Source of the DNA: a virus
Reading direction: 5' to 3' (one strand)
DNA length: 24,327 nt
Virus record (IMG/VR): IMGVR_UViG_3300009438_000024
Location: 1 to 24,327 of that record
The position numbers and the translations under genes are program-made. Under the pieces are notes generated by a model that did not search any database, had not been told where the DNA came from, and was given only the letters and a program-made list of their open reading frames with translations. Positions 1,080 to 23,390 of this stretch are shown piece by piece (position 1 is the first letter of the stretch; every line of letters starts with the position of its first letter).

Positions 1080-1779
1080 AAAAAAGAGAAAACCAAAAAG
1101 CAAAAATTACTTTACCCAAGATACTGAAAATGCCATTGTAAGATATAATAATGAACCAGATCCTGAAATTCGAAGTAAAATATATGAATCAGAGATCCAT
1201 TATGCATTTTTTAAACTAACTCAGAATATTATTCACACATTTAAATTCTACCATACTGAGGTTGAGAATTTAGAACATTTACAACATGAAATAATTACTT
1301 TTTGTTTATCTAAATTTCACTTATTTGACCCAACAAGAGGGGCTAAAGCTTACTCCTATTTTGGTACTATAGTAAAACGTTGGTTAATTTTATATAATAC
1401 TAAAAATTATAGTAAAAAAATTAAAAAGATAGATGTAGATATATTAACTAAAGAGACTTCAAATCACACTTACAGTATGAGTGATGATCCCCAAAATACA
1501 GAATTAAGTAAATATATAGATTTATTTGTTGATCATGTTACATTAAATATTTATGATTTATTTCCAAAGAAAAATGATGCTAAAATAGCAGATGCCATAT
1601 TAGAGTTATTTAGAAATAGGGAAAATATAGAAATATTTAATAAAAAGGCACTTTATATCTACATAAGAGAGATGGTAGATGTAAAAACCCCTAAAATAAC
1701 TAAAATAGCTGACAAGCTTTATGGTATATTTAAATCACAATATATATTCTTTTTAGAAAACGGTCACGCTAAATTCTAA
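1066..1779 (+). CDS. gp55-like late RNA polymerase sigma factor
   Basis: This 237-residue protein starts with a basic Lys/Arg-rich tail and then an all-helical region resembling T4-type gp55 late sigma factors and sigma region 2: an N-terminal helix with NEPDPEIRSKIYE, then IIHTFKFYH, a helix around LQHEIITFCLSKFHLFDP, and the TRGAKAYSYFGTIVKRWLI segment (residues about 85-105), which matches the conserved -10 recognition stretch FDP-x-x-G-x-x-AYSYF in these proteins. There is no clear region 4, as in gp55. In T4, gp55 directs host RNA polymerase to TATAAATA late promoters with the sliding clamp. The C-terminus (IFFLENGHAKF) does not obviously match the T4 clamp-binding motif. The start at 1066 overlaps the preceding gene. 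A run of eight A bases near the start (1078-1085) is a weak spot for sequencing error. It probably reads the promoter motif repeated downstream in this window. Confidence 0.78.
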   Translation: MEPIKKKRKPKSKNYFTQDTENAIVRYNNEPDPEIRSKIYESEIHYAFFKLTQNIIHTFKFYHTEVENLEHLQHEIITFCLSKFHLFDPTRGAKAYSYFGTIVKRWLILYNTKNYSKKIKKIDVDILTKETSNHTYSMSDDPQNTELSKYIDLFVDHVTLNIYDLFPKKNDAKIADAILELFRNRENIEIFNKKALYIYIREMVDVKTPKITKIADKLYGIFKSQYIFFLENGHAKF

Positions 1780-1793
1780 ATCCTTCTTATATC

Positions 1794-1804
1794 CATATTT
1801 ATAA
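1794..1804 (+). promoter_or_regulatory. Candidate late promoter (CATATTTATAA)
   Basis: CATATTTATAA lies in the 37-base gap between the sigma gene and the next start at 1817. The core TATTTATA spans 1796-1803. The same element recurs in every other substantial intergenic gap of the window. With T4 late spacing the transcript would start near 1809, leaving a leader of about 8 bases with no Shine-Dalgarno site. It would drive the spike block 1817-4956. Confidence 0.65.
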
Positions 1805-1816
1805 TAAAATAACATT

Positions 1817-2173
1817 ATGGCTTTAGACAACATAGTATTTGGTAATAAAAAATTTTCTGACATACTCAGTGAAATTTATGACAACCAAAATAAAAAATCA
1901 TCTCAAATCTCAGGTTTAATTTCAGAATTAAAACCACTTATAAATGATATAGGGGATGCAACTCTTATAGTGCCACTTATAAAAGAATATTTAGAAATTG
2001 GCGTTCGTAACGATGAACAATTAATTAAAATGTCGACTATAATACAACGCGCGCTCAACAATAGTTCTAGTGAAGATGCACTAGGTATAACGGAAGAAGA
2101 AAAACAACAATTAATGAAGGAGATTGAAAATCTAAATAATAACTTCGAGGAAACTAAAGATGGCAGTAAATAA
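1817..2173 (+). CDS. Conserved small phage protein, unknown function, next to the spike gene
   Basis: The 118-residue product is hydrophilic and helical, with no membrane segment. It starts MALDNIVFGNKKFSDILSEI, and has a central hydrophobic helix region (ELKPLINDIGDATLIVPLIKEYLEIG) and a C-terminal acidic coil (EEEKQQLMKEIENLNNNFEE). From memory it resembles small proteins next to baseplate genes in uncultured marine T4-like phages, but I cannot name a function. It is first in the block behind the promoter at 1794-1804, and its last 14 bases overlap the spike gene start, suggesting coupled translation. A tail-assembly or adaptor role is inferred from position only. There is no similarity to PAAR tip proteins or to gp53 that I can see. 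Confidence 0.8.
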   Translation: MALDNIVFGNKKFSDILSEIYDNQNKKSSQISGLISELKPLINDIGDATLIVPLIKEYLEIGVRNDEQLIKMSTIIQRALNNSSSEDALGITEEEKQQLMKEIENLNNNFEETKDGSK

Positions 2174-3488
2174 AACTGGAATATCTAGATTATTTCAAGT
2201 ATCATCTAATACTAATTCAAGTATGGGTGGGACTACTGGTGAAGTCCCACAAATTGGAGAATTTATAGTTGCTAGAGTTACAGATATTAATCTTAATTCT
2301 AATTCCGATTTATTTACAAAAACAGGTCAATGGTCAGGAATAGGTACAATTAACTTTTCTGAAGTCAAAACCCCAGGTTCTACAAGTGTAGATAATGCTA
2401 CCCTCCAACTTGCTACCCCCTTATTCCCTAATTTAAAAAATTATCCCTTAGTTAACGAGTATGTGCTTATTGTAAAGGGACCATCAAATATAAACCCTGA
2501 TATAGGATCAGAATTAAAGAATTTTTATGTAAGTATTACTTCATTATGGAATAGCCAACATATGAATGCTGTACCCATAAGTTTAAATAATGATAGTAAC
2601 CTTTCCCCATCTTTAAATAAATCATATACCTCTATAGAAACAGGAAATGTAAATAGACCTACAACACAAAAACAAAGCCTAGATTTAAATGGTAATAGTG
2701 GTGGTACTTTTGAAGAAAAAGGAGATATTCATCCTATTTTACCTTTTGCTGGTGATAATATACTTGAAGGTAGATTTGGTAATAGTATTAGGTTAGGTAA
2801 TACATCTAAAGCTGGAGGTACTATAACAAACAATTGGTCCCGGGGTAGTAATACTGAGAATGGAGATCCAATTACTATTATAAAAAATGGTCAACCAACA
2901 AGTGGCTCATCAGAAGGTTATTTACCAATTACTGAAGATATAAATAACGACCCTACGTCTATATATTTAACTTCTACTCAAAATATCCCATTTGATATAG
3001 CTGTTGCTACAACACGTGAAGGCGAAGGTTCAACAATACCATATTCAAACATAATTTCTCCAGTTCCTAAATCACCTAAATTATATAATGACCCTCAGAT
3101 AATATTAAATTCTGGTAGATTATTATTTAATACCCATACAGATAATATATTATTTTCATCACAAAAGTCTATTGTATTAACATCAATTGAAGATTTGGGT
3201 ATACAATCTCAAACTAAAAATGTAAATATTATATCTGATAAAGGTGTAGTATCTCTAGGTAAACAAAATGCATCTGAATCCGTAATTTTAGGTGATACCT
3301 TTATAAATGATTTTACAGCATTAATAGATAACTTAAAGACTTTATGTAGTGCTTTAGGTAAAGAAGGTTCTCTTCCTATTGCTTCATCTTTAGCCAATAT
3401 TCTTAGTCAATCTGGGGGTGTATTAGATAATATATCTAACAGGGCACAAGCAGGTGATTATAAATCTAAAAAAGTAAAAACTACCTAA
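2160..3488 (+). CDS. gp5-like baseplate central spike protein (OB-fold plus beta-helix)
   Basis: This 442-residue protein has the layout of a contractile-tail central spike. Residues about 30-125 form a likely OB-fold (IGEFIVARVTDI ... LFPNLKNYPLVNEYVLIVKGPS), the region that sits on the tail hub. The middle holds a conserved phage segment (GDNILEGRFGNSIRLGNT, then ITIIKNGQ and SIYLTSTQNIPF). The C-terminal part, residues about 310-385, alternates short beta-strand repeats (ILFSSQKSIVLTSIEDLGI, VVSLGKQNASESVILGD) as in gp5/VgrG beta-helices, followed by a helical tail. No lysozyme domain lies between OB-fold and helix, unlike T4 gp5. It should form the trimeric spike that pierces the outer membrane on sheath contraction. 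Its start overlaps the previous gene by 14 bases; a weak GAGG lies about ten bases upstream. Confidence 0.8.
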   Translation: MAVNKTGISRLFQVSSNTNSSMGGTTGEVPQIGEFIVARVTDINLNSNSDLFTKTGQWSGIGTINFSEVKTPGSTSVDNATLQLATPLFPNLKNYPLVNEYVLIVKGPSNINPDIGSELKNFYVSITSLWNSQHMNAVPISLNNDSNLSPSLNKSYTSIETGNVNRPTTQKQSLDLNGNSGGTFEEKGDIHPILPFAGDNILEGRFGNSIRLGNTSKAGGTITNNWSRGSNTENGDPITIIKNGQPTSGSSEGYLPITEDINNDPTSIYLTSTQNIPFDIAVATTREGEGSTIPYSNIISPVPKSPKLYNDPQIILNSGRLLFNTHTDNILFSSQKSIVLTSIEDLGIQSQTKNVNIISDKGVVSLGKQNASESVILGDTFINDFTALIDNLKTLCSALGKEGSLPIASSLANILSQSGGVLDNISNRAQAGDYKSKKVKTT

Positions 3489-3489
3489 T

Positions 3490-4956
3490 ATGATAGATTC
3501 AAAAATATTAATAGATCTAGGTAAACAATTTTTACAAACACCTAAAGGTTTAGAAATTATAGCTAAAGCTGAGGGGGTACAGGGGGGTATTGAAGATTTT
3601 AAAGCAACAAAAGAAATTCTTGAAAAATACAAACCTGTTATCACTACTTTTTCTACTAAAGGAAGATTGTACAGTGAGCAAACAAGTGAACCTATTCAAG
3701 GAGTTGAAGTACAACCTCTCCTTGCTTTATTTCCTATGAAGCTAGTAACTAAAACTAGAAAAATTAAAGTTGACGACCCTAATGGTAAAATAAATAGAAT
3801 AACTGGTAAACCTAAACAAATAAAAAAAGAGGAAGAATACAAAGAATATGTATATGATAAAGATGGTAATAAAGACATAAAAACTGATGAAAATGGAGAA
3901 TATGAGATTAGGTTTGGAACAGTAACAATCGAAGCCTTACCTGAATTAGCTATATTAGAACCAATAGTTCTTTATAAAAAAGACCAATATGCCCCTGATA
4001 AACAATCTTTAATAACCCTTGCGGGTGAAGTACCACAAGTTCTACCTATAAAAAAATTAATTGATATAGATGAAGAATCTGAAAGGCGAGCAGACCAGGT
4101 AAAAAATGAAATGAATAAGCTAGCTGAAACCGCTGCCCTTATAGGTTTAGGAGCGGCCCAAATAGCTATAATCACAATAAAAGCCCAGATATTATCATTT
4201 GCTGCGGTAGCCCAAAACAAATTATTTCCTTTAGCTATATCTTTAATGGTTGTGTTTGGTATTACCAAATTAGAAAAAGAAGAACAAGAAAGGGCGGTAT
4301 GCCCTAATAATGAGCTTTTAAGAGAACTTATAAAACGAAGAAATTCTATAGTTAAACAAATAAACCAAATGTGGGTAGTAATAGCAGCTAATACAGCAAT
4401 AGCAGCTTTATTTCTTTATCTATCAGTCCAATTAAAGGGTGTAAAAAGTAGTATTTCCGCAATAGGTTTCCCAGTTGCCACACCCCCAGGTGTAGGTGTA
4501 CCTTATTCTTTAATAGCAAAATTAGAAGATGTTAAAGAGTTACTTAAAGATTTAGTTGATATATCTGAAGATTTAAAAAAGGCATTACTTATATCCCTTA
4601 TATTTTTAGTTATATCCCTAATAATAATATTAAGATACTTAAAACGTATTGATGAACTAATAGAAAATTGTGGAGGTGATATACCTATGGAACAAATAAA
4701 TGCTGAGCTTTTAGCAATACAAGCTAACTCACAAGAACAGGGTAACTCAATATTAGCTAATGTAAATGGTTTTGAACTATCTGTAATAAAAGAGGAAAAA
4801 TTTAAAGTCGGGGATCAATATAGAAGAAGAGCAATAGCTAAAAATTCAGGAGGAATTACAATATTACAAGGAGAACCTTCTTTTAGTGCTGAAGATCAAA
4901 TATTACTAGATGAACTATCATTTTATATAATACAAAACAATTTAAAAGCAGATTAA
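3490..4956 (+). CDS. Virion-associated protein with Ig/CarboxypepD_reg-like domain and hydrophobic helices
   Basis: The 488-residue product has three parts. Residues about 51-160 look like a carboxypeptidase-regulatory/transthyretin-type beta domain: KGRLYSEQTSEPIQGVEV, a Lys-rich insertion, then TDENGEYEIRFG. Residues 194-210 are charged and helical, leading into an Ala/Ile-rich stretch (213-258) with two possible membrane-crossing helices, a third at 294-314 (MWVVIAANTAIAALFLYL), a Gly/Pro loop, and a strongly hydrophobic fourth at 364-384 (ALLISLIFLVISLIIILRYL). The C-terminus is a mixed soluble tail. It begins one base after the spike gene stop and ends 18 bases before the next gene. A virion protein with membrane-type helices beside the spike could be ejected to line a DNA channel, or act as a short tape measure. 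Neither is shown. Neighbouring structural proteins lack comparable hydrophobic segments. Confidence 0.75.
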   Translation: MIDSKILIDLGKQFLQTPKGLEIIAKAEGVQGGIEDFKATKEILEKYKPVITTFSTKGRLYSEQTSEPIQGVEVQPLLALFPMKLVTKTRKIKVDDPNGKINRITGKPKQIKKEEEYKEYVYDKDGNKDIKTDENGEYEIRFGTVTIEALPELAILEPIVLYKKDQYAPDKQSLITLAGEVPQVLPIKKLIDIDEESERRADQVKNEMNKLAETAALIGLGAAQIAIITIKAQILSFAAVAQNKLFPLAISLMVVFGITKLEKEEQERAVCPNNELLRELIKRRNSIVKQINQMWVVIAANTAIAALFLYLSVQLKGVKSSISAIGFPVATPPGVGVPYSLIAKLEDVKELLKDLVDISEDLKKALLISLIFLVISLIIILRYLKRIDELIENCGGDIPMEQINAELLAIQANSQEQGNSILANVNGFELSVIKEEKFKVGDQYRRRAIAKNSGGITILQGEPSFSAEDQILLDELSFYIIQNNLKAD

Positions 4957-4960
4957 TTTA

Positions 4961-4970
4961 ATATTTATAA
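4961..4970 (+). promoter_or_regulatory. Candidate late promoter (ATATTTATAA), leaderless spacing
   Basis: ATATTTATAA, core TATTTATA at 4962-4969, fills most of the 18-base gap before the ATG at 4975. Only five bases separate the core from the ATG, so a T4-like start site falls on the A of the start codon, giving a leaderless transcript. It would drive the wedge operon 4975-15315, in which all later gaps are at most eight bases. Confidence 0.65.
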
Positions 4971-4974
4971 CTAT

Positions 4975-5373
4975 ATGAAACTAAGTCAATTAAAAACAAT
5001 CGTAAAGGAAGCCGTAAAGGAAGCAATCCAAGAAGAAATGAAAGATATTCTTATGGAAGCTGTACGTGCCCCTAGACAAACAGTTGTCGAAAGAATTACA
5101 GCAACTCCTTCAACAGGTATAGGAACACCTAGCCCAACTAACCCAATCATGCAACAACCTATGTCAGATGATAAAAGAATGGAAATGAAGGAAAATATAC
5201 AAGGTATTTTAGGTAGTATGATGCCTGATGCTAATGGTACTATAAGTGCAAATACAAATACGATGCCATTACAAATGAATGGTAATATGGATACAACTAG
5301 CCCAAATGGACAATTACCTCAAGGTGAGGTAGATATGAGCCAAATAATGGGTTTAATGAAAGGTAAAATATAA
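4975..5373 (+). CDS. Small helical protein with disordered tail, unknown function
   Basis: The 132-residue product opens with an amphipathic, charged helix (MKLSQLKTIVKEAVKEAIQE, then EMKDILMEAVR). A Pro/Thr-rich linker with TPSTGIGTPSPTNP follows, a short helix (KRMEMKENIQGILGSMMPD), an Asn/Met-rich low-complexity stretch, and a final helix (DMSQIMGLMKGKI). It is methionine-rich (including MMPD, NTMPLQMN and IMGLMKG). It is the first gene of the wedge operon and lies one base before gp25. Similar short proteins with an N-terminal VKEAVKEAI helix occur, from memory, near baseplate genes of marine phages, without known function. A flexible adaptor or chaperone used in baseplate assembly is plausible, but that is inference. 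Confidence 0.75.
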   Translation: MKLSQLKTIVKEAVKEAIQEEMKDILMEAVRAPRQTVVERITATPSTGIGTPSPTNPIMQQPMSDDKRMEMKENIQGILGSMMPDANGTISANTNTMPLQMNGNMDTTSPNGQLPQGEVDMSQIMGLMKGKI

Positions 5374-5374
5374 T

Positions 5375-5782
5375 ATGGCATTTAGAGCACCCAACCAGTT
5401 TGTTAATGACTTAAGCCCAGCAGTGGGTATTGGAGTAAATCTCCCATTCAATGAAGGTGGTGTGTTCACTCCTAATTACCAAACAGCAGAAGCAATTAAA
5501 AATAATTTAATTAATTACTTTTTAACTAATCCAGGTGAAAGACCTGGAAATCCTACATTTGGTGGGGGGTTAAGAAGATTTATATTTACCCAAATAAGTG
5601 AAGGTAATTTAGATTTTTTAAGAGAAGATGTAGAAACTAAACTTAAAAGAGAATTTCCTCTAGTAAACGTTCAAGAATTAAATGTTTTATCTAACCCAGA
5701 CAATAACGAAGTAACAGTACAAATATATTATAATGTTATAAATACTGCTATTGAAGATACTTTAAATTTAAATTTTAACTAA
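5375..5782 (+). CDS. 25: Baseplate wedge protein gp25 (GPW/gp25 family)
   Basis: At 135 residues it matches the usual length of gp25 (T4 gp25 is about 132). The diagnostic segment is TNPGERPGNPTFGGGLRRFIF at residues about 50-70: the GER turn followed by a FG-x-x-L strand-helix is the core of the GPW_gp25 family. Before it is the helix AEAIKNNLINYFL, and the C-terminus holds alternating strands (VNVQELNVLSNPDNNEVTVQIYYNVI). In contractile tails gp25 contacts gp6 and the first sheath ring, so it passes the baseplate signal to the sheath. It shares its last base with the gp6 start (TAATG), and this gp25-gp6 order is the common wedge arrangement. No Shine-Dalgarno site is visible. Confidence 0.93.
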   Translation: MAFRAPNQFVNDLSPAVGIGVNLPFNEGGVFTPNYQTAEAIKNNLINYFLTNPGERPGNPTFGGGLRRFIFTQISEGNLDFLREDVETKLKREFPLVNVQELNVLSNPDNNEVTVQIYYNVINTAIEDTLNLNFN

Positions 5783-7623
5783 TGGCTGTAAGAAAAGACA
5801 TAAAATACGTAAACAAAGAATTTACAGAATTAAGGAATCAGCTAATTAACTATTCACAAACTTACTTCCCAACTACTTATACCGATTTTTCTAACACATC
5901 CCCTGGGATGATGTTTATAGAACAAGCAGCATATGTAGGTGATGTATTATCCTTCTATTTAGATAATCAAATACAAGAAAACTTTTTACAATATTCTAGA
6001 CAACAAAGTAATATATTTGATATGGCTTATATGTATGGTTATAAACCTAAAGTTACAGGTTTATCAAATACTATATTAGATATATACCAACAAGTCCCTG
6101 CTAAATTAGTTAATAACGAATATGTTCCAGACTATGATTATGCTTTATATGTAGATTCTAACACATCAATATCAACAACCTCAGCAACCCCTGTAACGTT
6201 TACTCTTGATAATCCAATTGACTTTACAGTATCTAATTCTTTAGATCCAACTAATGTTTCAGTTGCTCAATTATCAGGTGGTAACCCCTCATTTTACCTA
6301 TTAAAAAAATCAAGAAATGTATTTTCAGGTAAAATTAATACAACATCATTTTCTGTAGGAAACCCACAAGCTTTCCTTACAATAGAAATTGATCAACCTA
6401 ACATAGCAGGTATAGTTGATATAGTAGATTCAGATGGTAATAAATGGTATGAGGTTGATTATTTAGGTCAAGATTTAGTATTTGATGGTATAAAAAACAC
6501 AAATGTTAATGACCCTAATACTTATTTAGATAGTGACACACCTTATTTATTACAAACTAAAGCTGTAGAAACTAGATTTGCAACTCGATTCTTAAGTAAT
6601 ACTCTTCTTCAACTTCAATTTGGTGTTGGTAACCCCAATAGTACAACTGAAGAAATTATACCAAATTCAATGAATGTTGGTTTAGGTTTACCTTTTGAAC
6701 AAAACAAATTAACAGCAGCTTATAGTCCTACAAATTTTGTATTTACAAATACTTATGGTATTGCCCCTTCAAATACAAGTTTGACAGTAAGATACTATAC
6801 AGGTGGGGGTGTTCAATCTAACGTGCTATCTAACACTATTACTAATATTAATACTTCAAATATAAAATTTATAAAAGGGGGGCTTAATCCTAGTTTAGCA
6901 CAGTATGTATTTGATTCTATAGCATCTAATAACCCACAAGCAGCCTCAGGAGGTCAAGATGGAGATTCAATAGAAGAAATAAGACAAAACAGTATATCTA
7001 ATTTCTCAACACAGTTAAGAAACGTAACAGCTAATGATTATTTAGTAAGAGCTTTAAGTATGCCTTCTAAATATGGTAGGATATCAAAAGCATGGACTCA
7101 AAAACCAAATGCTGATGAAGCTAATACAACTTTAGATCTTTATGTATTAACACAAGATAACCAAAAGAATTTAAATATTGCTTCTAATACTTTAAAACAA
7201 AATGTTAGAACATATCTTAATGAATATAAAATGATTGGTGATACTATTAATATTAAAGATGCTTTTATTATTAATTTTGGTGTAAATTTTGAAATTATTA
7301 CTTACCCTAATTTTAATAATAATGAAGTACTTGAAAGATGTATAACATCACTTCAAACATATTTTAATATTGATAGGTGGCAAATAAACCAACCTATAAT
7401 AATACCTGATTTATTTGTAATATTAGACAGATTAGAGGGGGTACAAACTGTTAAATCTATTGTAACATATAATATAGCAGGATCAAATAAAGGATATTCA
7501 GAATGGGCTTATGATATGTCCGGAGCTAATCAAAATGGGACAATATTCCCATCATTAGATCCTAGCATTTTTGAATTAAAATACCCAAATACAGATATTA
7601 AAGGAAAAGTAGTAAATTTATAA
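5782..7623 (+). CDS. 6: Baseplate wedge protein gp6 (baseplate J-like)
   Basis: This 613-residue protein is close in size to T4 gp6 (about 660). The N-terminal 110 residues carry the typical gp6/J signature: a helix VNKEFTELRNQLINYSQTYF, then SNTSPGMMFIEQAAYVGDVL, and the helical SFYLDNQIQENFLQYSRQQ. The centre is beta-rich (residues about 110-350). The segment IEEIRQNSISNFSTQLRNVTANDYLVRAL (about 394-424) followed by PSKYGRISKAWTQ is the conserved baseplate J core, and the C-terminus ends in the usual small alpha/beta domains with LEGVQTVKSI. gp6 forms the ring that joins wedges and drives baseplate rearrangement. It shares one base with gp25 and ends two bases before the next gene. Arginine is almost entirely AGA. 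Confidence 0.92.
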   Translation: MAVRKDIKYVNKEFTELRNQLINYSQTYFPTTYTDFSNTSPGMMFIEQAAYVGDVLSFYLDNQIQENFLQYSRQQSNIFDMAYMYGYKPKVTGLSNTILDIYQQVPAKLVNNEYVPDYDYALYVDSNTSISTTSATPVTFTLDNPIDFTVSNSLDPTNVSVAQLSGGNPSFYLLKKSRNVFSGKINTTSFSVGNPQAFLTIEIDQPNIAGIVDIVDSDGNKWYEVDYLGQDLVFDGIKNTNVNDPNTYLDSDTPYLLQTKAVETRFATRFLSNTLLQLQFGVGNPNSTTEEIIPNSMNVGLGLPFEQNKLTAAYSPTNFVFTNTYGIAPSNTSLTVRYYTGGGVQSNVLSNTITNINTSNIKFIKGGLNPSLAQYVFDSIASNNPQAASGGQDGDSIEEIRQNSISNFSTQLRNVTANDYLVRALSMPSKYGRISKAWTQKPNADEANTTLDLYVLTQDNQKNLNIASNTLKQNVRTYLNEYKMIGDTINIKDAFIINFGVNFEIITYPNFNNNEVLERCITSLQTYFNIDRWQINQPIIIPDLFVILDRLEGVQTVKSIVTYNIAGSNKGYSEWAYDMSGANQNGTIFPSLDPSIFELKYPNTDIKGKVVNL

Positions 7624-7625
7624 TT

Positions 7626-9113
7626 ATGGCAATATACAAATTATTCCCCTCACAAGACGCCTCAATATATAGTGCTTACCCGGCAATGAATACTGGGTTA
7701 GACCCTATATTAGATGTATTTAACACTTACCCATCAACAACACCTTCACCTCAAGTTGCTAGGTCAATTATCAAATTTGACCAGTCTGAGATTGAAGAAG
7801 TTATTGGTAGTATTGCCAAAGTAGATGGTCAAGCAGGTGAGTGGAACCAATGGTCAGGGAGTTTAAAGGCATATGTTGCAAAAGCAACAAACATAGTACT
7901 TAATTCTAACTTAGAAATATATCCAGTATCAGGTTCTTGGAACAATGGTACAGGTCAATATTTAGATAATAAAATTAATGGAACAGGAGTAAGTTGGGTA
8001 TTCCAAGACTATTCAGGTTCAAGACCATGGGTACAAGGAGGATTTCCACCATTAGTTACTGGTTCATTTTCAGGAAGTAATAATGCTGGAGGTGGTAATT
8101 GGTATACAGGTTCAGGGGGTTATCAAAATATTAATTCACTGACAGCATCACAAAACTTTAACTTAAGAAGTACAAAAGATTTAAATGTTGATGTCACTGA
8201 CATATTAAAAGTATGGTATTCATCATCTAAAGATATTAATCAAGGTTTAATTGAAATATCAAACGAGGGTTTCATGGTTAAGTGGGAAGATTCGAAAGAA
8301 TTTGTTACTGAAAGTGCTATTACACCTCAATTAAGCTTCTACTCAGTAGATACTAATACTATATACCCACCACAATTAGAAATAAAATGGAGGGATTATT
8401 CATATTCAACTAGTAGTGGTGATTTTAAATTTGGTAGAACCTTAACAGGTTCATACCCAACAAATGAATTAACAAGTTCTATTTCATGTTCATTTACACA
8501 ATCCTTACCAACACCTGATAGTAATACAGGTACAGGTACTGGAGCAACATTTGGAGCTACTTTTAATGGTACTTCTATGTTAAATGTATTTGTTAAAGAA
8601 TTAGGATTAGGATATAAAGAAGGAGATATATTACAATGGGATGCAGCAACAATAAATGCATTACCTTCTACTTCAGGAGCTATAACAAATGCTGTTACTA
8701 CGTTATCAACATTTGATATAACACAACTCCCAGTTTTAAGTACTCCTGATGTTTTTGTAGCTTTAGATAATAATCAAGGGGTATTTTATAGTGAAAGTAT
8801 TAATCAATTTAGAATAAATTCACGACCTTTATTTCCTACTAGAACCTTTACAACACAATCAGCTTATACTTTAAATTATGCTCTACCTTCATCTTCATAT
8901 TATGCTATAAAAGATTTAGATACTAATGAGTATGTAGTGGAATTTGATGAAGAGTTTACACAAATTAGTTGTGATTCAACTGGAAGTTTCTTTACTATTT
9001 ATATGAATGGTTTGGAGCCTGAAAGATATTATAATATATTAATAAAAACAGTAGTTGATAAACAAACAATAGTATCAGATGAAAATTATTACTTTAAAGT
9101 AATTAATGGTTAA
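7626..9113 (+). CDS. DNRLRE-like virion protein with inserted Gly/Thr module
   Basis: This 495-residue protein begins like a DNRLRE/CBM96-type beta domain: LFPSQDASIYSAYPAMNTG, then ARSIIKFD, LKAYVAKATN, LEIYPVSGSWNNGTG, and NVDVTDILKVWYSSS with GLIEIS (residues about 5-220). Those domains are known from carbohydrate-active secreted proteins. Residues about 302-368 hold a Gly/Thr-rich module (GTGTGATFGATF ... GYKEGDILQW) that recurs in two other proteins of this window. The C-terminal 125 residues look like a separate beta domain (YYAIKDLDTNEYVVEFDEEF, LEPERYYNILIKTVV). It lies between gp6 and the gp7-like gene, so it is probably part of the baseplate periphery, perhaps a receptor or fibre-attachment protein. 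The DNRLRE assignment is by eye and moderate; the virion role follows from context. Confidence 0.68.
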   Translation: MAIYKLFPSQDASIYSAYPAMNTGLDPILDVFNTYPSTTPSPQVARSIIKFDQSEIEEVIGSIAKVDGQAGEWNQWSGSLKAYVAKATNIVLNSNLEIYPVSGSWNNGTGQYLDNKINGTGVSWVFQDYSGSRPWVQGGFPPLVTGSFSGSNNAGGGNWYTGSGGYQNINSLTASQNFNLRSTKDLNVDVTDILKVWYSSSKDINQGLIEISNEGFMVKWEDSKEFVTESAITPQLSFYSVDTNTIYPPQLEIKWRDYSYSTSSGDFKFGRTLTGSYPTNELTSSISCSFTQSLPTPDSNTGTGTGATFGATFNGTSMLNVFVKELGLGYKEGDILQWDAATINALPSTSGAITNAVTTLSTFDITQLPVLSTPDVFVALDNNQGVFYSESINQFRINSRPLFPTRTFTTQSAYTLNYALPSSSYYAIKDLDTNEYVVEFDEEFTQISCDSTGSFFTIYMNGLEPERYYNILIKTVVDKQTIVSDENYYFKVING

Positions 9114-9121
9114 AAAATAAA

Positions 9122-9601
9122 ATGAATAAACTTACAGAAAAAATAGATTTAATAAAAAAAGTATATTCTAAAACCGAATATCCTAAAATTATAGACACTC
9201 GATTTCAACAATTGGGTAATCTTTCTGTAAACCAACAGATAGCAGAGACTGTTACTGTTGCTAATTTTTTTAAATATTATAATGATTTATTTTATGATAT
9301 TCCTGCTTATGGGTCTAGTAATTCACATGAATACCTAGTAAAAACAAGTGGTGACTATATAAATTTTGATCAAGATAATGAAATAATAGTGGCATTAAGG
9401 GCAGAAATAACTCAATTAAGAAGAGATTTATTACAAGCACAAATTTCAACTGCCGAAGCCCTTACAGGGGAAAAAATTAATTTAAATGTTGATAATATAG
9501 AAGATACTGATCTATCAGGAACTAAAGAATATAATGATATTCTAAATTCAATTCCTTCTACACCAACAGAAGCTAATACTACAAACACCACTACTTTCTA
9601 A
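9122..9601 (+). CDS. Conserved small baseplate-region protein, unknown function
   Basis: The 159-residue product has an N-terminal helical domain (KIDLIKKVYSKTEYPKIIDT, then IAETVTVANFFKYYNDLFYD) followed by IPAYGSSNSHEYLVKTSGDY, a heptad-like coil (IVALRAEITQLRRDLLQAQI, residues about 88-110) and a Thr/Asn-rich disordered tail ending TTNTTTF. From memory, proteins with the same KTYSK-x-EYPK-x-IDTRF opening and SH-x-YLVK-x-SGDY centre sit before the large LamG-type protein in marine phages, with no assigned function. Its position between gp6 and a gp7/gpI-like gene would suit a wedge component such as gp53, but I see no gp53 or LysM signature, so I leave it unnamed. It starts eight bases after the preceding stop and ends two bases before the next start. 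Confidence 0.8.
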   Translation: MNKLTEKIDLIKKVYSKTEYPKIIDTRFQQLGNLSVNQQIAETVTVANFFKYYNDLFYDIPAYGSSNSHEYLVKTSGDYINFDQDNEIIVALRAEITQLRRDLLQAQISTAEALTGEKINLNVDNIEDTDLSGTKEYNDILNSIPSTPTEANTTNTTTF

Positions 9602-9603
9602 AT

Positions 9604-15315: not shown

Positions 15316-15354
15316 AATTAAAACAATTAGGAGTAGCGAAAATTTTTTATTATA

Positions 15355-15364
15355 TTATTTATAA
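15355..15364 (+). promoter_or_regulatory. Candidate late promoter (TTATTTATAA)
   Basis: TTATTTATAA, core TATTTATA at 15356-15363, sits in the 73-base gap between the two giant genes. It differs from the other copies by T instead of A just before the core. A T4-like start near 15369 would leave about 20 bases of leader before the ATG at 15389. A 7-bp inverted repeat begins on its last base. Confidence 0.6.
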
Positions 15365-15380
15365 TAGTATCACATACTAT
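15364..15380. repeat. Inverted repeat at the promoter of the 1721-residue gene
   Basis: ATAGTAT (15364-15370) and its exact complement ATACTAT (15374-15380) are separated by CAC. The palindrome begins on the last base of the promoter motif and covers the predicted start site, so an operator read as DNA fits better than an RNA hairpin. It is A/T-rich and short, and chance is possible. Confidence 0.4.
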
Positions 15381-15388
15381 ACTTAAAC

Positions 15389-18300
15389 ATGGCGGATCAA
15401 ACAAACAAACAAATAAAATACTACTTTAAAGAGGATACTAATCAAATATTAGTGTCTGGATCTGACACAGTTGCTAAAACTAATGCTATACTTGAATTAG
15501 TTAAAGACCCAGCAACACAAGCTAATTTCTTCTATGATACTAAGATTGTAAATTATGGTGTTGATGCTACTTATGTAGTACAAAATGGTCCGGAATTTGT
15601 AAGTTTAGTAGAAAATCAGGCAATTTCTAATTTTTCATCTGTATCAGTTGATAATCAACTTCAAACATTCCCTTCTATACCTGTAACCGGTAACATAAAT
15701 GGGACAGGTGCTACTCTTACAATAAAATCATCACCCACTCTAAACATAGGTGTTTATGATATAACGTTAGTTAGAGTTAACGCTACAGGTTCAAATTGGA
15801 CATCAGGGGAAACAATTACAATCCCCCAATCGACATTAATTAGCGCTGGTTTCCAAAACCCAACTGCTGATTTAGTTGTTACTTTATCTACTAATAATGT
15901 AAATATATATAGTACTGAAATCCCATTAAAGTCAGATCAAGAACTTTGGGTACATAAAGGATATAATACAGTAGGAGGAGATGGGGATGAGTATAGATAT
16001 AACCCACACTTACATAGAGCATATAAAGCTTATATAGTAGTTGAAACAGGTTCTGGTATTCCATCTAACCCATGGTTACCTGTAGGTAACCCTATTAATA
16101 CAGGTTTACTTAGTGGGGGAGGAAATATCCCAGGTGTATATTTAGAAAAACAACTAGCAATATTAGGTAATGAAAGTGGATTATCCCCAAATAATATAAC
16201 GGGTTCATTTCAAATATATAACCCTTCTAGAAGTATTAGACCTTTTATATTTACTAAGTATACATCTCTACAAACCCCACCAATGTATGGTGCCTGGTTC
16301 AGAATATATCTAGAAAACCAAGAGCAATTATATACAAACTTTAGTTTTAATACCTCAACTACACCACCACCAGGATCAAATAAAATAAGTTTTAACTCAG
16401 TTGATGTAACTCTAGCTACAGAAATATATATAGACAACTATACACCAAATGGCATAGACATTTTTATGTCATCACTTTCTTCTTCTTATGATTTTGGTAA
16501 AACTGGAGGGAAATTAAGAATATCTTCAAATAATACAAATTACACTCAATATGATATAACTTCTATTGATGAAATTGGTAATGATTATTTTAAAGTAAAT
16601 GTTACATATGATGAACAATCACCCACATTTACACCCTTTACAAATTTTACAGCTATAAGTACCCTCTTTTCAGAAGTACCTAAGTATCAAGGACAATTTT
16701 CGCAATTTCAATATGGTGGAGCTCCATCACAACCTGAACTACCCCCTATAGGTTTCCGTACACCTGGTTTTTATACTTACACTAGTAGTGTATTCCCAGT
16801 AGTAGATGAAAACAATGTACCTGCAGTAGGTTCAACCCAATTTGGGTTATATGCAGATTACTCTTATTATATGGTATATAATGCTAGAGTAGACGCGAAT
16901 AATCCAGGCACAGTAAGAGTAACATTTACATCTTCAGCTAATATTCCTTCATATGTTGATATACCTGCTGGGTATAACGCAAATATACCAGCATTAGTAG
17001 GGACACTTTCACAAACTGGATTTACACCTGGACCCAATGACCCACCAGATTTTAGTATAGATTCAACATATTTTGGTGAGGATTTTACTGTAATAATTAA
17101 TGGGGCAGCACAAGGAACACCACCAATCCCACCTGATAATTTTGCTAAAAGATGGGAATCAGCTTATATATCATATTCATCATCATTATCTTCTAGTTTA
17201 GATGGTTTATATGTATTTAATCAACTACCTCAAAACGATGTTCAAGTAACAGCTTCTATGTTTATTACTGCATGGACTGGTAGTGCTGTGGGGACAACAT
17301 ATGGAGATGTTAATTCTGAATATGGTACTGCAACTTATGATGTAGGTGAAGCAGGAGATGGACCAACTTGGCCTACGGCTTCAATAAGAATTTATACAGG
17401 TAGTTATCCTACCTTTGTACCAACTACATTAGATGCTTTTGTAACACAATCTGAATTTAGAGATGAAAATATTCATGTTAATGGTTTAGCTATTACCATG
17501 AGTTACTTAATCCCATCACAATCCATAGGAATTAAAGATTGTTTGTCATTATCATTAGCTGTATCCTCAGGATCAGCACCCTCAGAATCAGTTGAAAATT
17601 CATTAGTAGTAAGAGAATATTATCTTGAGTTTAATACCCCACAAGGTGAAGTAATAGGAGATGGTATAGTTCCAACATTTGTACAAAATGCATTTAATGG
17701 AACTCAAGGTTTTACCAACGCCCCCGATTGTCAGCCTGTGTTAAACAATGCACTTGGAGAAAGAGAAAATAGACGTATCCAACAAGTAGATTATTCAACA
17801 GGGATATATGATCCAGTTAATTTCCAAGCTATATTATCGGGATCTGCTCAAAAATCAACAGTACCTGAATCTAATTATACACAATTAGCTAACATATTTC
17901 CAAGATATGTAGGTAGTAGAACATCTGCAAAGGAGGTTAATTCTATAGAAGGATTAGTTAATGGTTTTGGTACTTTACCTGTAATTGATTACCAAACAGC
18001 ATATTTTGCTTACTGTGACCAAATATTAGACCCCTACCCTGTAGTAAATAATAAGATTCTATTAAATTTAAAATATTTAATAAATGGGGCAGGTGATGCT
18101 CTAAATCCTTTACTATCCCCATATACTGGATTAGATGTAGAACAAAGTTGGGCTGAAGGAGGATTAGGTAACATTCAAGTAAACCAAATCTCAGGTTCAG
18201 CACAATATGATCAAATTAATGGGTTACAACCTATATTAACAGTAGCTAAACAACCTGTACCTATATTATATTCTCAAACATCTTCAAATGGGTATTTAGG

Positions 18301-20554
18301 TGAAAATGAATCAATCCCATTAGAAGGAAATCCAAATTTTGTTAGTAGTTTCTCTCAAAGTTATATGCAATATGGTCAAAGAATAGGGGGTAGTGTTTAT
18401 GATGTAAGTAAATCAAACAACCAACAGATTAATTATGCTAACTTACTTGGAGGGATTACATCCTCAGGAGGTAACTTAAATAGTCTCCAGGTTAGTTCAT
18501 CATTCCTTAATAGGTGGGGAGAATGGTATGATGAAAGTGCTTTTATATTGAGAAATGATCAAATAGGTAATGCTATTATTTTAAATGAATCAGATACTGC
18601 AAATTGGACAGGTTCTACTTTCCCTATCCCTACAGATGGTACTGGAGGTAACAATGCTACTACTAACCCTTACCTAGGAAATCCAGGGCAAATATTTTTT
18701 ACTATAGATCCAGTAGCTATGTCAGGTAGTGGAGGAGTAAATGTTGGGGAATTATCAGATAATTATATTGCTACAATCAATTACACCCAACCAAGTTCAT
18801 TCCCTAATATTTTTAGAACCCAAGTTGGAGAAGCAAGTTCTTGGAGTGATTGGAATGGTCAAAGTACAGAATATGGTACTAATAGAGTAGGAGATATTTC
18901 ATTTAGTTTACAAGCTGCTGCAGGTACTAGTCAAAATTGGCAAAATAAACCATTTACCTTTACAGAAGAACCTAAAATAGTAGCATATTTTGGTAATATA
19001 AACAATAACCAAGTAAATCTGGATGGTACTTCTACAACAATGTCATTAGCCCAAGTATCCTCAGATGAAGGAATAGTGAATAATAAATACTCTAGTGGTA
19101 TTTATCGAAACCTAATCCAAAATAAAATTAATAATGATACAGGTAGGGTTGATGATGTAGCTTATGTATCATTTATATTTAAAGCTCGATCTAATTTCCC
19201 ATTAAAAAGTGGTATTAAATATAGATGGAATGTTAATTTAGATTATTTAGAACAAAATAATTCTGTACTGGCTGCTGATGGGGTAACCAATTTTTGGAAT
19301 CCTACTAAGGTACCAAAGGGGTATGGCTTTACAGGACTTAGTGGTGGGACTGTTGCTGATGGTTTACCAATTGTAAACCCTCCAAAAGGTCCTTTTGTTA
19401 CTCTTGAGGTTGTATCATCACAAACCGAAGATCAAACTGAAGATAATGCTATTAATTATCCATATTGGGAATTTTCATCATCAAACGCAACACCCCCTCT
19501 AGAATTTAATTATACCTCTAGTCTTTCTGATACTGTACCACCAATGAATGGTAACACAGGTTTAGGTTCAATAAGATTTGATAATAGTGGATTTAATGAT
19601 ACAAACAATATTTATCTTACTGAAACATCATCAGCAGGTCAAATTATTAAACCTTATATAGACCATTTAAATTCTTTAAGCTCAAAGGGACAAGTAATAG
19701 TAACCAACAACTTAGGTTCAATAGTATACACAGGTTCTATTACTAACACAATCAATGCATCTGGAACACCAGCTAATAATGATAGAAGATATGAAATCCC
19801 AGTAACACCTGTTGTAGACAGTGATAATATGTTTGAGAATCAAAGTGATTTAACATTAATATTTACTACAGGATCCTCAGATTTAATCCCTCAAAGGAAT
19901 GTACTTTTAATGGTATCACCAAATGGTAACTTAACTTATGATAAGGATTATTATATAGGATATGTACCTTATGTACCCTCAAACAATAATGCTTTTCCTG
20001 GGGGACAAGAACCAACAGATACTGCTTGGCCTCGTCCTAACATACCATGGAATGTTCAACCTGGTGATGAAATTAGATTTGTAAACTCTGAAACTACAAC
20101 TAGAAGAATTACACAGATAACAACACCATCTGAATATCAAGAACAATCTGGTACTTTTCAATTAAGATTACAACTTGATGATTATATAGATAACGGGATT
20201 AATATTCAATTCTTTTTATTAAGAAGATACCTTAAGGCATATAATTCAATTTTAATTAATACCCAATTTTCTTATGGTTCTTTACCACAACTAACTAAAT
20301 GGGTAGATTCTAAAGATACTAAAATATTAAATACAGGTATTACAGATAGTAGTCAACCATGGACAGGAACATTCCCTTCATCTCAATCGATGACAGAAGA
20401 AGCATCTGGTAGTTATGTATCATATACACCACCATTAAAAAAAGCAGATAATACACCTTCAGGTTTCTTTTTCCCACATTTCCCAATAGCAGAAATAGAA
20501 CTAAACCCGGATGAAACATTAAAACAACTAAGAGACAATAAACTTATAACTTAA
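15389..20554 (+). CDS. Large virion structural protein (tail fibre or baseplate appendage), unknown function
   Basis: This 1721-residue protein has no recognisable enzyme domain. It is rich in Ser, Thr, Gly, Asn and aromatic residues with predicted beta structure throughout, as in phage fibre and appendage proteins. Its N-terminus (NKQIKYYFKEDTNQILVSGS) leads to the Gly/Thr module at residues about 103-172 (GTGATLTIKSSP ... SNWTSGETITIPQSTL), shared with two upstream proteins. A short YG motif (TTYGDVNSEYGTATYD) lies near residue 635. The C-terminal 150 residues differ in character, with charged strands (RRITQITTPSEYQEQSGTFQ, QFFLLRRYLKAYNS) and an ending rich in Pro and Phe (GFFFPHFPIAEIELNPDE), perhaps an attachment or trimer-forming end. 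It has its own promoter and stands alone between two promoters. Its place beside the gp7-like gene suggests a tail-periphery role. No Shine-Dalgarno site is seen. Confidence 0.72.
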   Translation: MADQTNKQIKYYFKEDTNQILVSGSDTVAKTNAILELVKDPATQANFFYDTKIVNYGVDATYVVQNGPEFVSLVENQAISNFSSVSVDNQLQTFPSIPVTGNINGTGATLTIKSSPTLNIGVYDITLVRVNATGSNWTSGETITIPQSTLISAGFQNPTADLVVTLSTNNVNIYSTEIPLKSDQELWVHKGYNTVGGDGDEYRYNPHLHRAYKAYIVVETGSGIPSNPWLPVGNPINTGLLSGGGNIPGVYLEKQLAILGNESGLSPNNITGSFQIYNPSRSIRPFIFTKYTSLQTPPMYGAWFRIYLENQEQLYTNFSFNTSTTPPPGSNKISFNSVDVTLATEIYIDNYTPNGIDIFMSSLSSSYDFGKTGGKLRISSNNTNYTQYDITSIDEIGNDYFKVNVTYDEQSPTFTPFTNFTAISTLFSEVPKYQGQFSQFQYGGAPSQPELPPIGFRTPGFYTYTSSVFPVVDENNVPAVGSTQFGLYADYSYYMVYNARVDANNPGTVRVTFTSSANIPSYVDIPAGYNANIPALVGTLSQTGFTPGPNDPPDFSIDSTYFGEDFTVIINGAAQGTPPIPPDNFAKRWESAYISYSSSLSSSLDGLYVFNQLPQNDVQVTASMFITAWTGSAVGTTYGDVNSEYGTATYDVGEAGDGPTWPTASIRIYTGSYPTFVPTTLDAFVTQSEFRDENIHVNGLAITMSYLIPSQSIGIKDCLSLSLAVSSGSAPSESVENSLVVREYYLEFNTPQGEVIGDGIVPTFVQNAFNGTQGFTNAPDCQPVLNNALGERENRRIQQVDYSTGIYDPVNFQAILSGSAQKSTVPESNYTQLANIFPRYVGSRTSAKEVNSIEGLVNGFGTLPVIDYQTAYFAYCDQILDPYPVVNNKILLNLKYLINGAGDALNPLLSPYTGLDVEQSWAEGGLGNIQVNQISGSAQYDQINGLQPILTVAKQPVPILYSQTSSNGYLGENESIPLEGNPNFVSSFSQSYMQYGQRIGGSVYDVSKSNNQQINYANLLGGITSSGGNLNSLQVSSSFLNRWGEWYDESAFILRNDQIGNAIILNESDTANWTGSTFPIPTDGTGGNNATTNPYLGNPGQIFFTIDPVAMSGSGGVNVGELSDNYIATINYTQPSSFPNIFRTQVGEASSWSDWNGQSTEYGTNRVGDISFSLQAAAGTSQNWQNKPFTFTEEPKIVAYFGNINNNQVNLDGTSTTMSLAQVSSDEGIVNNKYSSGIYRNLIQNKINNDTGRVDDVAYVSFIFKARSNFPLKSGIKYRWNVNLDYLEQNNSVLAADGVTNFWNPTKVPKGYGFTGLSGGTVADGLPIVNPPKGPFVTLEVVSSQTEDQTEDNAINYPYWEFSSSNATPPLEFNYTSSLSDTVPPMNGNTGLGSIRFDNSGFNDTNNIYLTETSSAGQIIKPYIDHLNSLSSKGQVIVTNNLGSIVYTGSITNTINASGTPANNDRRYEIPVTPVVDSDNMFENQSDLTLIFTTGSSDLIPQRNVLLMVSPNGNLTYDKDYYIGYVPYVPSNNNAFPGGQEPTDTAWPRPNIPWNVQPGDEIRFVNSETTTRRITQITTPSEYQEQSGTFQLRLQLDDYIDNGINIQFFLLRRYLKAYNSILINTQFSYGSLPQLTKWVDSKDTKILNTGITDSSQPWTGTFPSSQSMTEEASGSYVSYTPPLKKADNTPSGFFFPHFPIAEIELNPDETLKQLRDNKLIT

Positions 20555-20555
20555 T

Positions 20556-20566
20556 CATATTTATAA
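20556..20566 (+). promoter_or_regulatory. Candidate late promoter, upstream copy of a tandem pair (CATATTTATAA)
   Basis: CATATTTATAA, core 20558-20565, begins one base after the stop of the 1721-residue gene. It matches the copies at 1794 and 23380 over the full 11 bases. A T4-like start near 20571 would give a leader of about 26 bases for the gene at 20597. Confidence 0.62.
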
Positions 20567-20575
20567 CATATAACA

Positions 20576-20585
20576 ATATTTATAT
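20576..20585 (+). promoter_or_regulatory. Candidate late promoter, downstream copy of a tandem pair (ATATTTATAT)
   Basis: ATATTTATAT, core TATTTATA at 20577-20584, lies 19 bases after the first copy. It ends 12 bases before the ATG, almost the same spacing as at 1817. A T4-like start near 20590 would leave about 7 bases of leader. Two copies in 42 bases suggest strong expression of the operon 20597-23372. Confidence 0.55.
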
Positions 20586-20596
20586 AAAAAACAACA

Positions 20597-21262
20597 ATGG
20601 GATACTTAAATAATTCAGTAATAACAGTTGATGCTATCTTAACAACAAAAGGTAGAGAATTGTTAGCAGCAAACGACGGTTCATTCAGAATCACACAATT
20701 CGCACTTTCAGATGACGAAATAGATTACACACTATATAATCCAGCTCACCCATCAGGTTCTGCTTTTTATGGAGAAGCAATTGATGGAATGCCATTGTTA
20801 GAAGCTTTTCCTGAAGAATCACAAATAGTAAAGTATAAATTAGCAACTTTACCTAGAGGTACAGCTAAACTCCCTATCCTAAATTTAGGGTATTCTGCCA
20901 TTACTTTACAACAAGGAGCAGTAATAGCAATTACACCACAAACATTAAATTACTTAGGTAATGACCAAGTATTTGAAACAAGTGGGTATAGCTGTACAGT
21001 AGCAGATGTTCGTTTATTAAATACATTTGAAGCAACTGGTATAAATACAGCAGCCGCTACTAATTCTAATTTAAATTCAACAACAACAATTGGAACAAAC
21101 GTTTCATCAACCGTAACAGGTACTCAGATTACATTAAGAGCAACTACTATAAATACATTGTTTGGATCAAATTCAACATTAGTAAGTACTTTAACAGTTA
21201 ATGGTTTAGATAGTGGAGCTAGAATTACAATACCAATCACAATAACTAAATCAACAACATAA
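20597..21262 (+). CDS. Conserved phage virion protein, unknown function
   Basis: The 221-residue product has two parts. Residues 1-150 form a well-structured region: MGYLNNSVITVDAILTTKGR, ELLAANDGSFRITQFALSDD, EIDYTLYNPAHPSGSAFYGE, and MPLLEAFPEESQIVKYKLAT with LPRGTAKLPIL. The last 70 residues are Ser/Thr/Asn-rich and read as a small beta domain (TQITLRATTINTLFGSN, LTVNGLDSGARITIPITI). I recall closely similar proteins in uncultured marine T4-like phages, annotated only as structural. The phrase TTKGRELLA is also reminiscent of other phage virion proteins. Placed directly behind a tandem promoter, it is probably needed in many copies. It starts an operon with the two following genes. No Shine-Dalgarno site is visible, and the leader is A-rich (AAAAAACAACA). 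Confidence 0.82.
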   Translation: MGYLNNSVITVDAILTTKGRELLAANDGSFRITQFALSDDEIDYTLYNPAHPSGSAFYGEAIDGMPLLEAFPEESQIVKYKLATLPRGTAKLPILNLGYSAITLQQGAVIAITPQTLNYLGNDQVFETSGYSCTVADVRLLNTFEATGINTAAATNSNLNSTTTIGTNVSSTVTGTQITLRATTINTLFGSNSTLVSTLTVNGLDSGARITIPITITKSTT

Positions 21263-21272
21263 TATATAAAAC

Positions 21273-22304
21273 ATGGGATTTAAAAGATTAGAAGCAGACG
21301 ATTTTGTAGTAAGTGCACAAGCACAAACTCAAACCTGCTGGACAAATAACCAACCAGTATTAACTACATTTTATACACAATCAAACCAAGTTAATGGGGC
21401 TTCAGGAAAATACTATGTTACTGTATTTAACGAAAACCCAACAGGATCAAATTCACAAGCCCAATTTCAAATAGCATATGGAAATGAATCTGGAGGTGGT
21501 ACTTTAGCTTATAACCAACAAGCGGCACCTGGTGTATCTCCATCAAAAACTATATATGGTCAATACAGAACATTAGTTTTAGAAGATGAAAATTCATCAT
21601 TTGTATTTGGTGGGGTTACTGGAAGTTCAATTTATGCTTTAAGCATAGAAAGATCAGCTTATAAACAAGCATTATTCCCAGGTTCTTTAAACTTAACATT
21701 AAAAACCTCAAACAATCCAACAGGTTTACAATTAACAGACGATTCTAAAATGGTAAATGTTCCAACCTACTATGGTACAATGAGAGCTTATCAAATAATT
21801 AGTGGGTCAAACGGTACATCTTGGGATGCACCACTTAATGGGTATGCTGGAGCTAATAATGAACTGGGTTCATATGGTTTATTCTTACCTGACATTGGAA
21901 CTATTTTATTAAATGGGGATGTTTTGGATCTAGGAGGACCTCAAGGTATTCTTTTAGGAACTGTTGATGATGAGAATGTGAATGGTGCAAACCCTTTAAA
22001 ACTACTAAATGCCTTACAACAAGGTTCTTCATTTGGATTAAATTCTGAAGAAACTATTACATCTGATTATGTGTTTGTTAGAGCAAGAAACAGTGAATTT
22101 AACTATTCAGAAAACCCCTCATATATTTCAGGATCAACTGGTGAGGTAATTTATAATTATTTTATAAATAACCCACAAACTTACTTGACAACTGTAGGTA
22201 TGTATAACGATTCAAATGAGTTATTAGCGGTAGCAAAATTATCAAAACCTTTAAACAAAGATTTTACAAAAGAAGCTCTGATTAGAGTAAAACTAGATTT
22301 TTAA
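21273..22304 (+). CDS. Virion structural protein, paralogue A of a tandem pair
   Basis: This 343-residue protein is beta-rich with no enzyme motif. It opens MGFKRLEADDFVVSAQAQTQ and closes with NSEFNYSENPSYIS ... YLTTVGMYNDSNELLAVAKL followed by SKPL. The closing block aligns well with the end of the next gene, and weaker parallels run through the length (FKRLEADDFVVS with YKTLNSQDVIIS, LFPGSLNLTL with ILPNSIVITT, DIGTILLNGDV with EHGMIIYTGGT), so the two look like a duplication. The ending may be a shared docking or oligomerisation domain. It starts 10 bases after the previous stop and ends six bases before its paralogue. It is likely a tail or neck component; which one cannot be read. Confidence 0.78.
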   Translation: MGFKRLEADDFVVSAQAQTQTCWTNNQPVLTTFYTQSNQVNGASGKYYVTVFNENPTGSNSQAQFQIAYGNESGGGTLAYNQQAAPGVSPSKTIYGQYRTLVLEDENSSFVFGGVTGSSIYALSIERSAYKQALFPGSLNLTLKTSNNPTGLQLTDDSKMVNVPTYYGTMRAYQIISGSNGTSWDAPLNGYAGANNELGSYGLFLPDIGTILLNGDVLDLGGPQGILLGTVDDENVNGANPLKLLNALQQGSSFGLNSEETITSDYVFVRARNSEFNYSENPSYISGSTGEVIYNYFINNPQTYLTTVGMYNDSNELLAVAKLSKPLNKDFTKEALIRVKLDF

Positions 22305-22310
22305 AAATGA

Positions 22311-23372
22311 ATGGCTGCTTACAAAACTTTAAATTCACAGGATGTAATAATATCCCCATTAGACGTAGTTAAAGGATTTTCTTTTAATGGGGCCGCTATG
22401 ACCTCATCTAATGTTAATATTGATAGATATCTAGGGAATAAATTTGGAACTGGAAGTGCTACAGGCCACATAACAGAATACTCACAATCTGCAATATATT
22501 TTTCAGCACAACAACTATATTATTCAAACTACATTTCAAGTAGTAATGGTGAAGCTCAAGTAGCAAACACCCAATCAATATCCCCTGATGGTGTTACTGA
22601 TGGAAGAATAGCATCAAATGCTTTTTTTAATTATGAACAAACAGATTTAAACCCAGAAAAATACTGGCCTACTAGTTCATATACTGTTAAAACCCCCACA
22701 GCAACATATGGTGAGGCTATATATGGTGAAGCATTATATGGAGAAACAACATTTGAACCTTATATAGGTACAATGTCTATTCCAAAAGCAATGTTTGGAG
22801 ACTATATTTTACCTAACTCTATAGTAATAACTACCCCTAGTGGTAGTTACTTTGATGACGGTGAGGGCAGATTAAAAATGTTAACCCCTAATTTTATTGA
22901 TCAAGATTCTATTGTAGTAGGTAATGTTATCTATGAACATGGAATGATAATTTACACAGGAGGTACAAGAAAAGAAGGAACAGGAGTAAATGGAGGATAT
23001 GGAGATTCTGAATATGGAGTAAGTTTATGGGGAGGTAGAACAGTAGGTAATAACCATGTTGAAAACTTTGTAGAAACTGAAGACATTATTGTAGAGTTCT
23101 CATCTTCTTTTACTATGTATGAGACGCAATATAAGTGTACAATAGGAGAAAGTGAATTTAATTATACACTAAATCCTACGGTTATAAGTAATACAAGTAA
23201 TGATGGAACTGTGTATGATTATGTAACAGGATCTTATTTTTCTCCATATGTTACTACAGTAGGGTTGTATAATAATAATAATGAATTAATGGCTGTAGGT
23301 AAAATGGCACAACCTCTTCCTACATCTAGAACTACTGATACAACAATTTTAGTAAACATTGACAGACAATAA
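22311..23372 (+). CDS. Virion structural protein, paralogue B of a tandem pair
   Basis: The 353-residue product is related to the preceding protein, most clearly over its last 75 residues (ESEFNYTLNPTVIS ... YVTTVGLYNNNNELMAVGKM followed by AQPL). Unlike its paralogue it carries YG repeats: YGEAI-YGEAL-YGETT at residues 133-147, then GGYGDSEYGVSLWGG near residue 225. The start at 22311 (ATGGCTGCT) is preferred; an ATG four bases earlier is in another frame. It is last in the operon, with a promoter in the gap behind it before the collagen-like gene. The divergent middle, with the YG repeats, may present a surface specific to this copy while the C-terminus docks in the same place. This role is inference. 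Confidence 0.78.
   Translation: MAAYKTLNSQDVIISPLDVVKGFSFNGAAMTSSNVNIDRYLGNKFGTGSATGHITEYSQSAIYFSAQQLYYSNYISSSNGEAQVANTQSISPDGVTDGRIASNAFFNYEQTDLNPEKYWPTSSYTVKTPTATYGEAIYGEALYGETTFEPYIGTMSIPKAMFGDYILPNSIVITTPSGSYFDDGEGRLKMLTPNFIDQDSIVVGNVIYEHGMIIYTGGTRKEGTGVNGGYGDSEYGVSLWGGRTVGNNHVENFVETEDIIVEFSSSFTMYETQYKCTIGESEFNYTLNPTVISNTSNDGTVYDYVTGSYFSPYVTTVGLYNNNNELMAVGKMAQPLPTSRTTDTTILVNIDRQ
22707..22751 (+). repeat. Three tandem 15-base units coding YGEAx
   Basis: Three consecutive 15-base units encode YGEAI, YGEAL and YGETT, at 22707-22721, 22722-22736 and 22737-22751. The bases vary at third positions while the YGE core is kept, which suggests selection on the peptide. Related YG spacing appears elsewhere in this protein and in the 1903- and 1721-residue proteins. 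Confidence 0.7.
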
Positions 23373-23379
23373 ACCTTTA

Positions 23380-23390
23380 CATATTTATAA
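23380..23390 (+). promoter_or_regulatory. Candidate late promoter (CATATTTATAA)
   Basis: CATATTTATAA, core TATTTATA at 23382-23389, lies in the 38-base gap before the ATG at 23411. It matches the copies at 1794 and 20556 exactly. A T4-like start near 23395 gives a leader of about 16 bases with no Shine-Dalgarno site. It would drive the collagen-like fibre gene. Confidence 0.65.

Follow-up and report, generated by a model that had tools for sequence, protein, structure and literature searches.

The octamer TATTTATA, which occupies the wider intergenic gaps of a 24,327-nt stretch of viral DNA (IMG/VR record IMGVR_UViG_3300009438_000024, positions 1 to 24,327; hereafter the window), likely represents a class of late promoters with a changed specificity, for which a divergent gp55-like sigma factor would serve as reader. 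Such a class had been proposed in a sequence-only reading of the window. The proposal stands as regards enrichment of the octamer in related phages, its sense orientation and a T4-like anatomy devoid of a -35 element, but not as regards the description of the octamer as the T4 element 'reversed'. The placement, orientation, anatomy and lineage-wide conservation of TATTTATA, as well as its co-occurrence with a sigma family (with one exception, LR756508), were established by computation. From these features we infer that it is a promoter, that it would act late, where transcription would start and that the sigma-like protein encoded at 1066-1779 would read it. A phage protein distantly related to the late sigma factor of T4 is probably the reader.

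Placement in the window and in related phages

The six gap coordinates given in the earlier reading are all correct (Table 1), and the copies occupy each of the five window gaps of at least 18 nt (37, 18, 73, 42 and 38 nt, about 208 nt in sum; the last gene begins at 23411). Five of the six sites extend to TATTTATAA, as had been described. The statement that a single further copy exists, inside a gene, is accurate for the + strand; the - strand, uncounted at that stage, adds five (2939, 5737, 21040, 21148 and 22163), all within genes. The window total on both strands (12) is ordinary when compared to shuffles (9.1 +/- 3.2); hence, the count alone is uninformative and the placement is the signal. 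Shuffled gaps average 0.27 (dinucleotide) or 0.13 (mononucleotide) copies versus the 6 observed, and none of 20,000 shuffles yielded six copies or filled all five gaps (the last gap was taken 5 nt overlong, with immaterial effect). The T4 late octamer TATAAATA is absent from the + strand of the same five gaps. A copy of TATTTATA or of its variant TATTTAAA also lies directly 3' of the sigma gene in Flavobacterium phage immuto (78885) and in Rhodothermus phage RM378 (17831). The gene at 23411-24327, cut off by the edge of the window, has a product with collagen-like G-x-y repeats (GAQGITG and variants) and is probably a tail fibre gene.

Table 1. Features of the window; promoter assignments and +1 positions are predictions.
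Feature	Position	Strand	Remarks
Sigma-like protein, 237 aa	1066..1779	+	gp55-like region 2 (~residues 18-109) and all-helical C-terminal domain (~146-232)
TATTTATA octamer, predicted late promoter	1796..1803	+	directly 3' of sigma gene; predicted +1 1809, leader 8 nt
TATTTATA octamer, predicted late promoter	4962..4969	+	predicted +1 = A of ATG at 4975 (leaderless)
TATTTATA copy in gene 7626-9113	8996..9003	+	probably chance; within coding-DNA expectation
TATTTATA octamer, predicted late promoter	15356..15363	+	precedes 1721-aa gene; predicted +1 15369
TATTTATA octamer, predicted late promoter	20558..20565	+	tandem pair, first; predicted +1 20571
TATTTATA octamer, predicted late promoter	20577..20584	+	tandem pair, second; predicted +1 20590
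TATTTATA octamer, predicted late promoter	23382..23389	+	precedes collagen-like fibre gene, ATG 23411; predicted +1 23395

Genome-wide counts confirmed intergenic enrichment in the late half of immuto, in three long IMG/VR contigs (G001, G002 and G003) and in Microcystis phage Mel-JY01. Within the half of immuto that holds the late, structural genes ('late' being assigned from gene function and position), TATTTATA is the most gap-enriched of all 8-mers, with 17 copies in 2,077 intergenic positions (0.94 expected) versus 2 in 80,474 coding positions; the early half has 7 sites. The genes 3' of these sites include those for terminase, portal, tail sheath, tail tube and tape measure. An exact octamer is missing from roughly 50% or more of the wide gaps in the late half. 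The three contigs (95-139 kb, unannotated and processed with a simple gene caller) hold 18, 27 and 20 gap copies, respectively, versus 2.9, 1.6 and 1.3 in shuffles. Enrichment is weaker in G001 (18 copies in gaps, 19 in coding DNA), and the octamer is the top or near-top sense-gap 8-mer in G002 and G003. Across 37 deduplicated loci it ranks first among sense-gap 8-mers (78 vs 1.24), although many of these gaps are homologous to one another and hence not independent. For Mel-JY01, ATATTTAT, which overlaps TATTTATA, ranks first, with TATTTATA itself among the top gap 8-mers. Under the same shuffle control, TATAAATA stays near background in the gaps of the immuto late half and the relatives; the same pipeline returned TATAAATA for two gp55 phages, T4 and the AT-rich marine HTVC008M. 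In LR756508, a jumbo phage with a sigma homologue (42%), neither TATTTATA nor TATAAATA nor any other octamer is enriched over ~140 kb. No published report of the TATTTATA motif was found in a search that left subscription journals largely outside its reach, and its novelty is thus unproven.

Orientation and anatomy of the element

The IMG/VR loci offer too few gaps in minus-strand operons for a test of orientation. RM378 has genes on both strands. Here, TATTTAAA is the leading octamer in gaps, and AAAA comes after it at a distance of two unconstrained bases (TATTTAAA-NN-AAAA). When gene positions are taken from the deposited annotation, 17 of the 19 intergenic copies face the gene that comes next on their own strand, and one of the two misoriented copies is a reverse copy overlapping a forward site; none was found between convergent genes as delimited by the simple gene caller. 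The distance from TATTTAAA to the start codon is always at least 5 nt. Elements of this form are seen on either strand upstream of structural operons, among them those for tail sheath and terminase, and no report of them turned up in the literature within reach.

A logo of 91 aligned TATTTATA sites has a sharp 5' edge and a 3' A-rich tail up to octamer position +13, with neither a -35 nor any other conserved upstream element. Late promoters of T4 are built on a comparable plan, with a box of 8 bp that precedes the start by about one helical turn, an AT-rich 3' side and no -35 (PMC2988020); the box is TATAAATA in T4 and KVP40 and NATAAATA in cyanophage S-PM2 (PMC2984593). TATTTATA likewise is a single 8-bp, -10-like box that lacks a -35 and is followed by an AT-rich stretch, and it stands upstream of structural operons in phages whose virion genes are T4-like. 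It is not the T4 octamer itself: in the forward reading, -10 and -9 are the only positions at which it departs from TATAAATA (TT for AA). A further difference is the conservation of the A-rich tail up to the predicted start. An altered late promoter within T4-like phages has a precedent in the Aeh1 variant (a/gC at -13/-12) cited in the T4 review (PMC2988020), although the change in TATTTATA sits at the opposite end of the octamer.

The octamer, in its extended form A-TATTTATA-A[CT]AAAA, is probably the only core element of late promoters in this lineage, spanning -13 to -6, with transcription proceeding in the gene direction. Two observations bear on the predicted start point: the tail ends ~6 nt past the box, and the start codon in RM378 keeps its minimal distance. 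If the T4 spacing applies, +1 would be the final base of the A-rich tail; a spacing of 5 nt in RM378 would make the A of the ATG +1 and the message leaderless, and the site at 4962 in the window is of the same kind. Transcription would start ~6 nt past the octamer and yield leaders of 0 to ~30 nt.

The sigma-like protein and the search for a clamp

The presence of a gp55-like sigma factor at 1066-1779 was upheld as remote homology. Comparison of its family with the gp55 family gave an hhalign E of 5.6e-6 over 90 columns, and Pfam Sigma70_r2 matches 16 of 23 members (best E 0.001); the PHROG late sigma phrog_234 matches weakly (E 0.005, 2 of 23 members). Relatives in IMG/VR number in the hundreds (two scans, overlapping in coverage, confirmed 584 and 595). 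The named complete phages with a homologue are immuto (46%; KNV73_gp118) and Mel-JY01 (37%), both found by direct search, and RM378, which a profile comparison revealed (E 1.9e-8); G001, G002 and G003 encode homologues too. AlphaFold's model of the full-length protein (pLDDT 74.6, pTM 0.43) retrieves mostly sigma factors as top Foldseek matches in the PDB, none below E 0.18. Its C-terminal domain (window 1483-1776) is conserved, all-helical and modelled at pLDDT 88, with no fold match among solved structures. A fused sigma2-sigma4 protein was considered and rejected, as the Foldseek E values are at least 0.18 and no sigma region 4 resembles the C-terminal domain, which is modelled with confidence.

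In the cryo-EM structure of gp55, A-12 lies on Y97, A-9 contacts N13 and H95, and A-8 contacts T99 (PMC7892883). The new family resembles gp55 (PDB 7d7c, 7d7d) in having sigma region 2 and the Y97 equivalent of the A-12 pocket, which is invariant in 25 of 25 gp55 and new-family sequences. It differs in its low identity to T4 gp55 (~11-17%), in the additional C-terminal domain and in the contact residues: the N13 equivalent is N in all seven gp55s but T or D here, and the T99 equivalent is G, Q or S, though A-8 stays in TATTTATA. This pattern of replacement, read from a remote alignment, is consistent with a change of specificity at -9. H95 was dropped as a specificity residue because gp55s themselves vary at this position. 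Host RNA polymerase would be brought to TATTTATA by the phage sigma, which may still read A at -12 and -8 and favour T at -10 and -9.

T4-type late promoters are activated by the gp45 clamp together with gp33. A search with PF09116 detected a gp45-type clamp in T4 but none in immuto, Mel-JY01 and RM378, which are complete, or in G001-G003; a diverged clamp could be missed in this way, and a gp33 may be present. immuto has two family-A DNA polymerase genes alongside no detectable gp45-type clamp, which also differs from T4. It is conceivable, though doubtful, that T4-like phages possess a second widespread late system, in which the sigma serving TATTT-type promoters is a single piece and has its own C-terminal domain in place of gp33 and the sliding clamp. 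A 'fused late sigma' had not yet been found according to the T4 review (PMC2988020), and a one-piece sigma would be one. This reading is retained solely as a speculative case, since the C-terminal domain lacks a match to sigma region 4.

Competing explanations and implications

Recognition of TATTTATA by the primary sigma factor of the host, instead of a phage sigma, is improbable but survives better than the other alternatives. Flavobacterial sigma-A uses TAnnTTTG, a comparably AT-rich box that spans -12 to -5 and so lies near the start (PMC9723704), and Flavobacteriia are the likely host context (assigned from immuto, a phage of Flavobacterium sp. LMO8, and from bins containing some of the closest MAG contigs). 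Nevertheless, TATTTATA has neither the TTTG end nor the upstream element of a Bacteroidota sigma-A promoter; the immuto early region has a different repeat, GTTG-N20-TATATTTAGGTAT, nearer to the flavobacterial type; and the motif is common to phages of Flavobacterium and Microcystis and, as a variant, of Rhodothermus.

An RNA-level leader signal, for translation initiation or mRNA processing, is less probable still. The position of TATTTATA directly 5' of start codons would suit such a role, as would the lack of Shine-Dalgarno sites in Bacteroidota (PMC6847099). The spacing to the ATG is, however, variable (mostly 4-33 nt), and in immuto the octamer often lies directly 3' of a terminator-like T run. 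Every gene needs translation, yet TATTTATA lies within 45 nt upstream of only 1 of 276 genes at tight junctions, compared to 85 of 290 after wider gaps, which argues against a translation signal.

Another reading, in which TATTTATA would be an ordinary T4 late element belonging to the other strand and the gaps would be transcribed from it in antisense, is very unlikely. The octamer is indeed the exact reverse complement of TATAAATA; as TATAAATA is a near-palindrome, though, replacement of AA by TT at -10/-9 yields its reverse complement by coincidence, and the forward orientation is apparent from the flanks and from RM378. Conserved flanks are confined to the sense-downstream (3') side, as for a forward promoter, and it is on this side that the start codon follows, after a short stretch of limited length; furthermore, TATTTAAA tracks gene orientation on both strands of RM378 and the sigma of this family lacks the gp55 pocket residues N13 and T99. 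Chance occurrence in AT-rich spacers, with which the ordinary window total would agree, is scarcely credible, as shuffled gaps never match the counts in the window, the immuto late half or G001-G003 and the gaps of the AT-rich HTVC008M hold no copy.

Apart from the late class, the immuto early region (22-74 kb) carries 15 copies of GTTG-N20-TATATTTAGGTAT, ~20 nt upstream of mostly small genes, which likely constitute an early, host-type promoter class. With this repeat in the early region and TATTTATA in the late half, immuto seems to have both early and late classes.

A late-promoter class marked by TATTTATA supplies an operon map for very abundant aquatic phages, of which few are cultured and whose genes are mostly unannotated. 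The diverged sigma and the diverged promoter form a natural pair, in which the base choice at -10/-9 lends itself to tests against single residues. The class further raises the question whether a whole branch is without clamp-coupled late transcription, the textbook mechanism of T4; if the one-piece sigma were real, late transcription would be uncoupled from replication via gp45.
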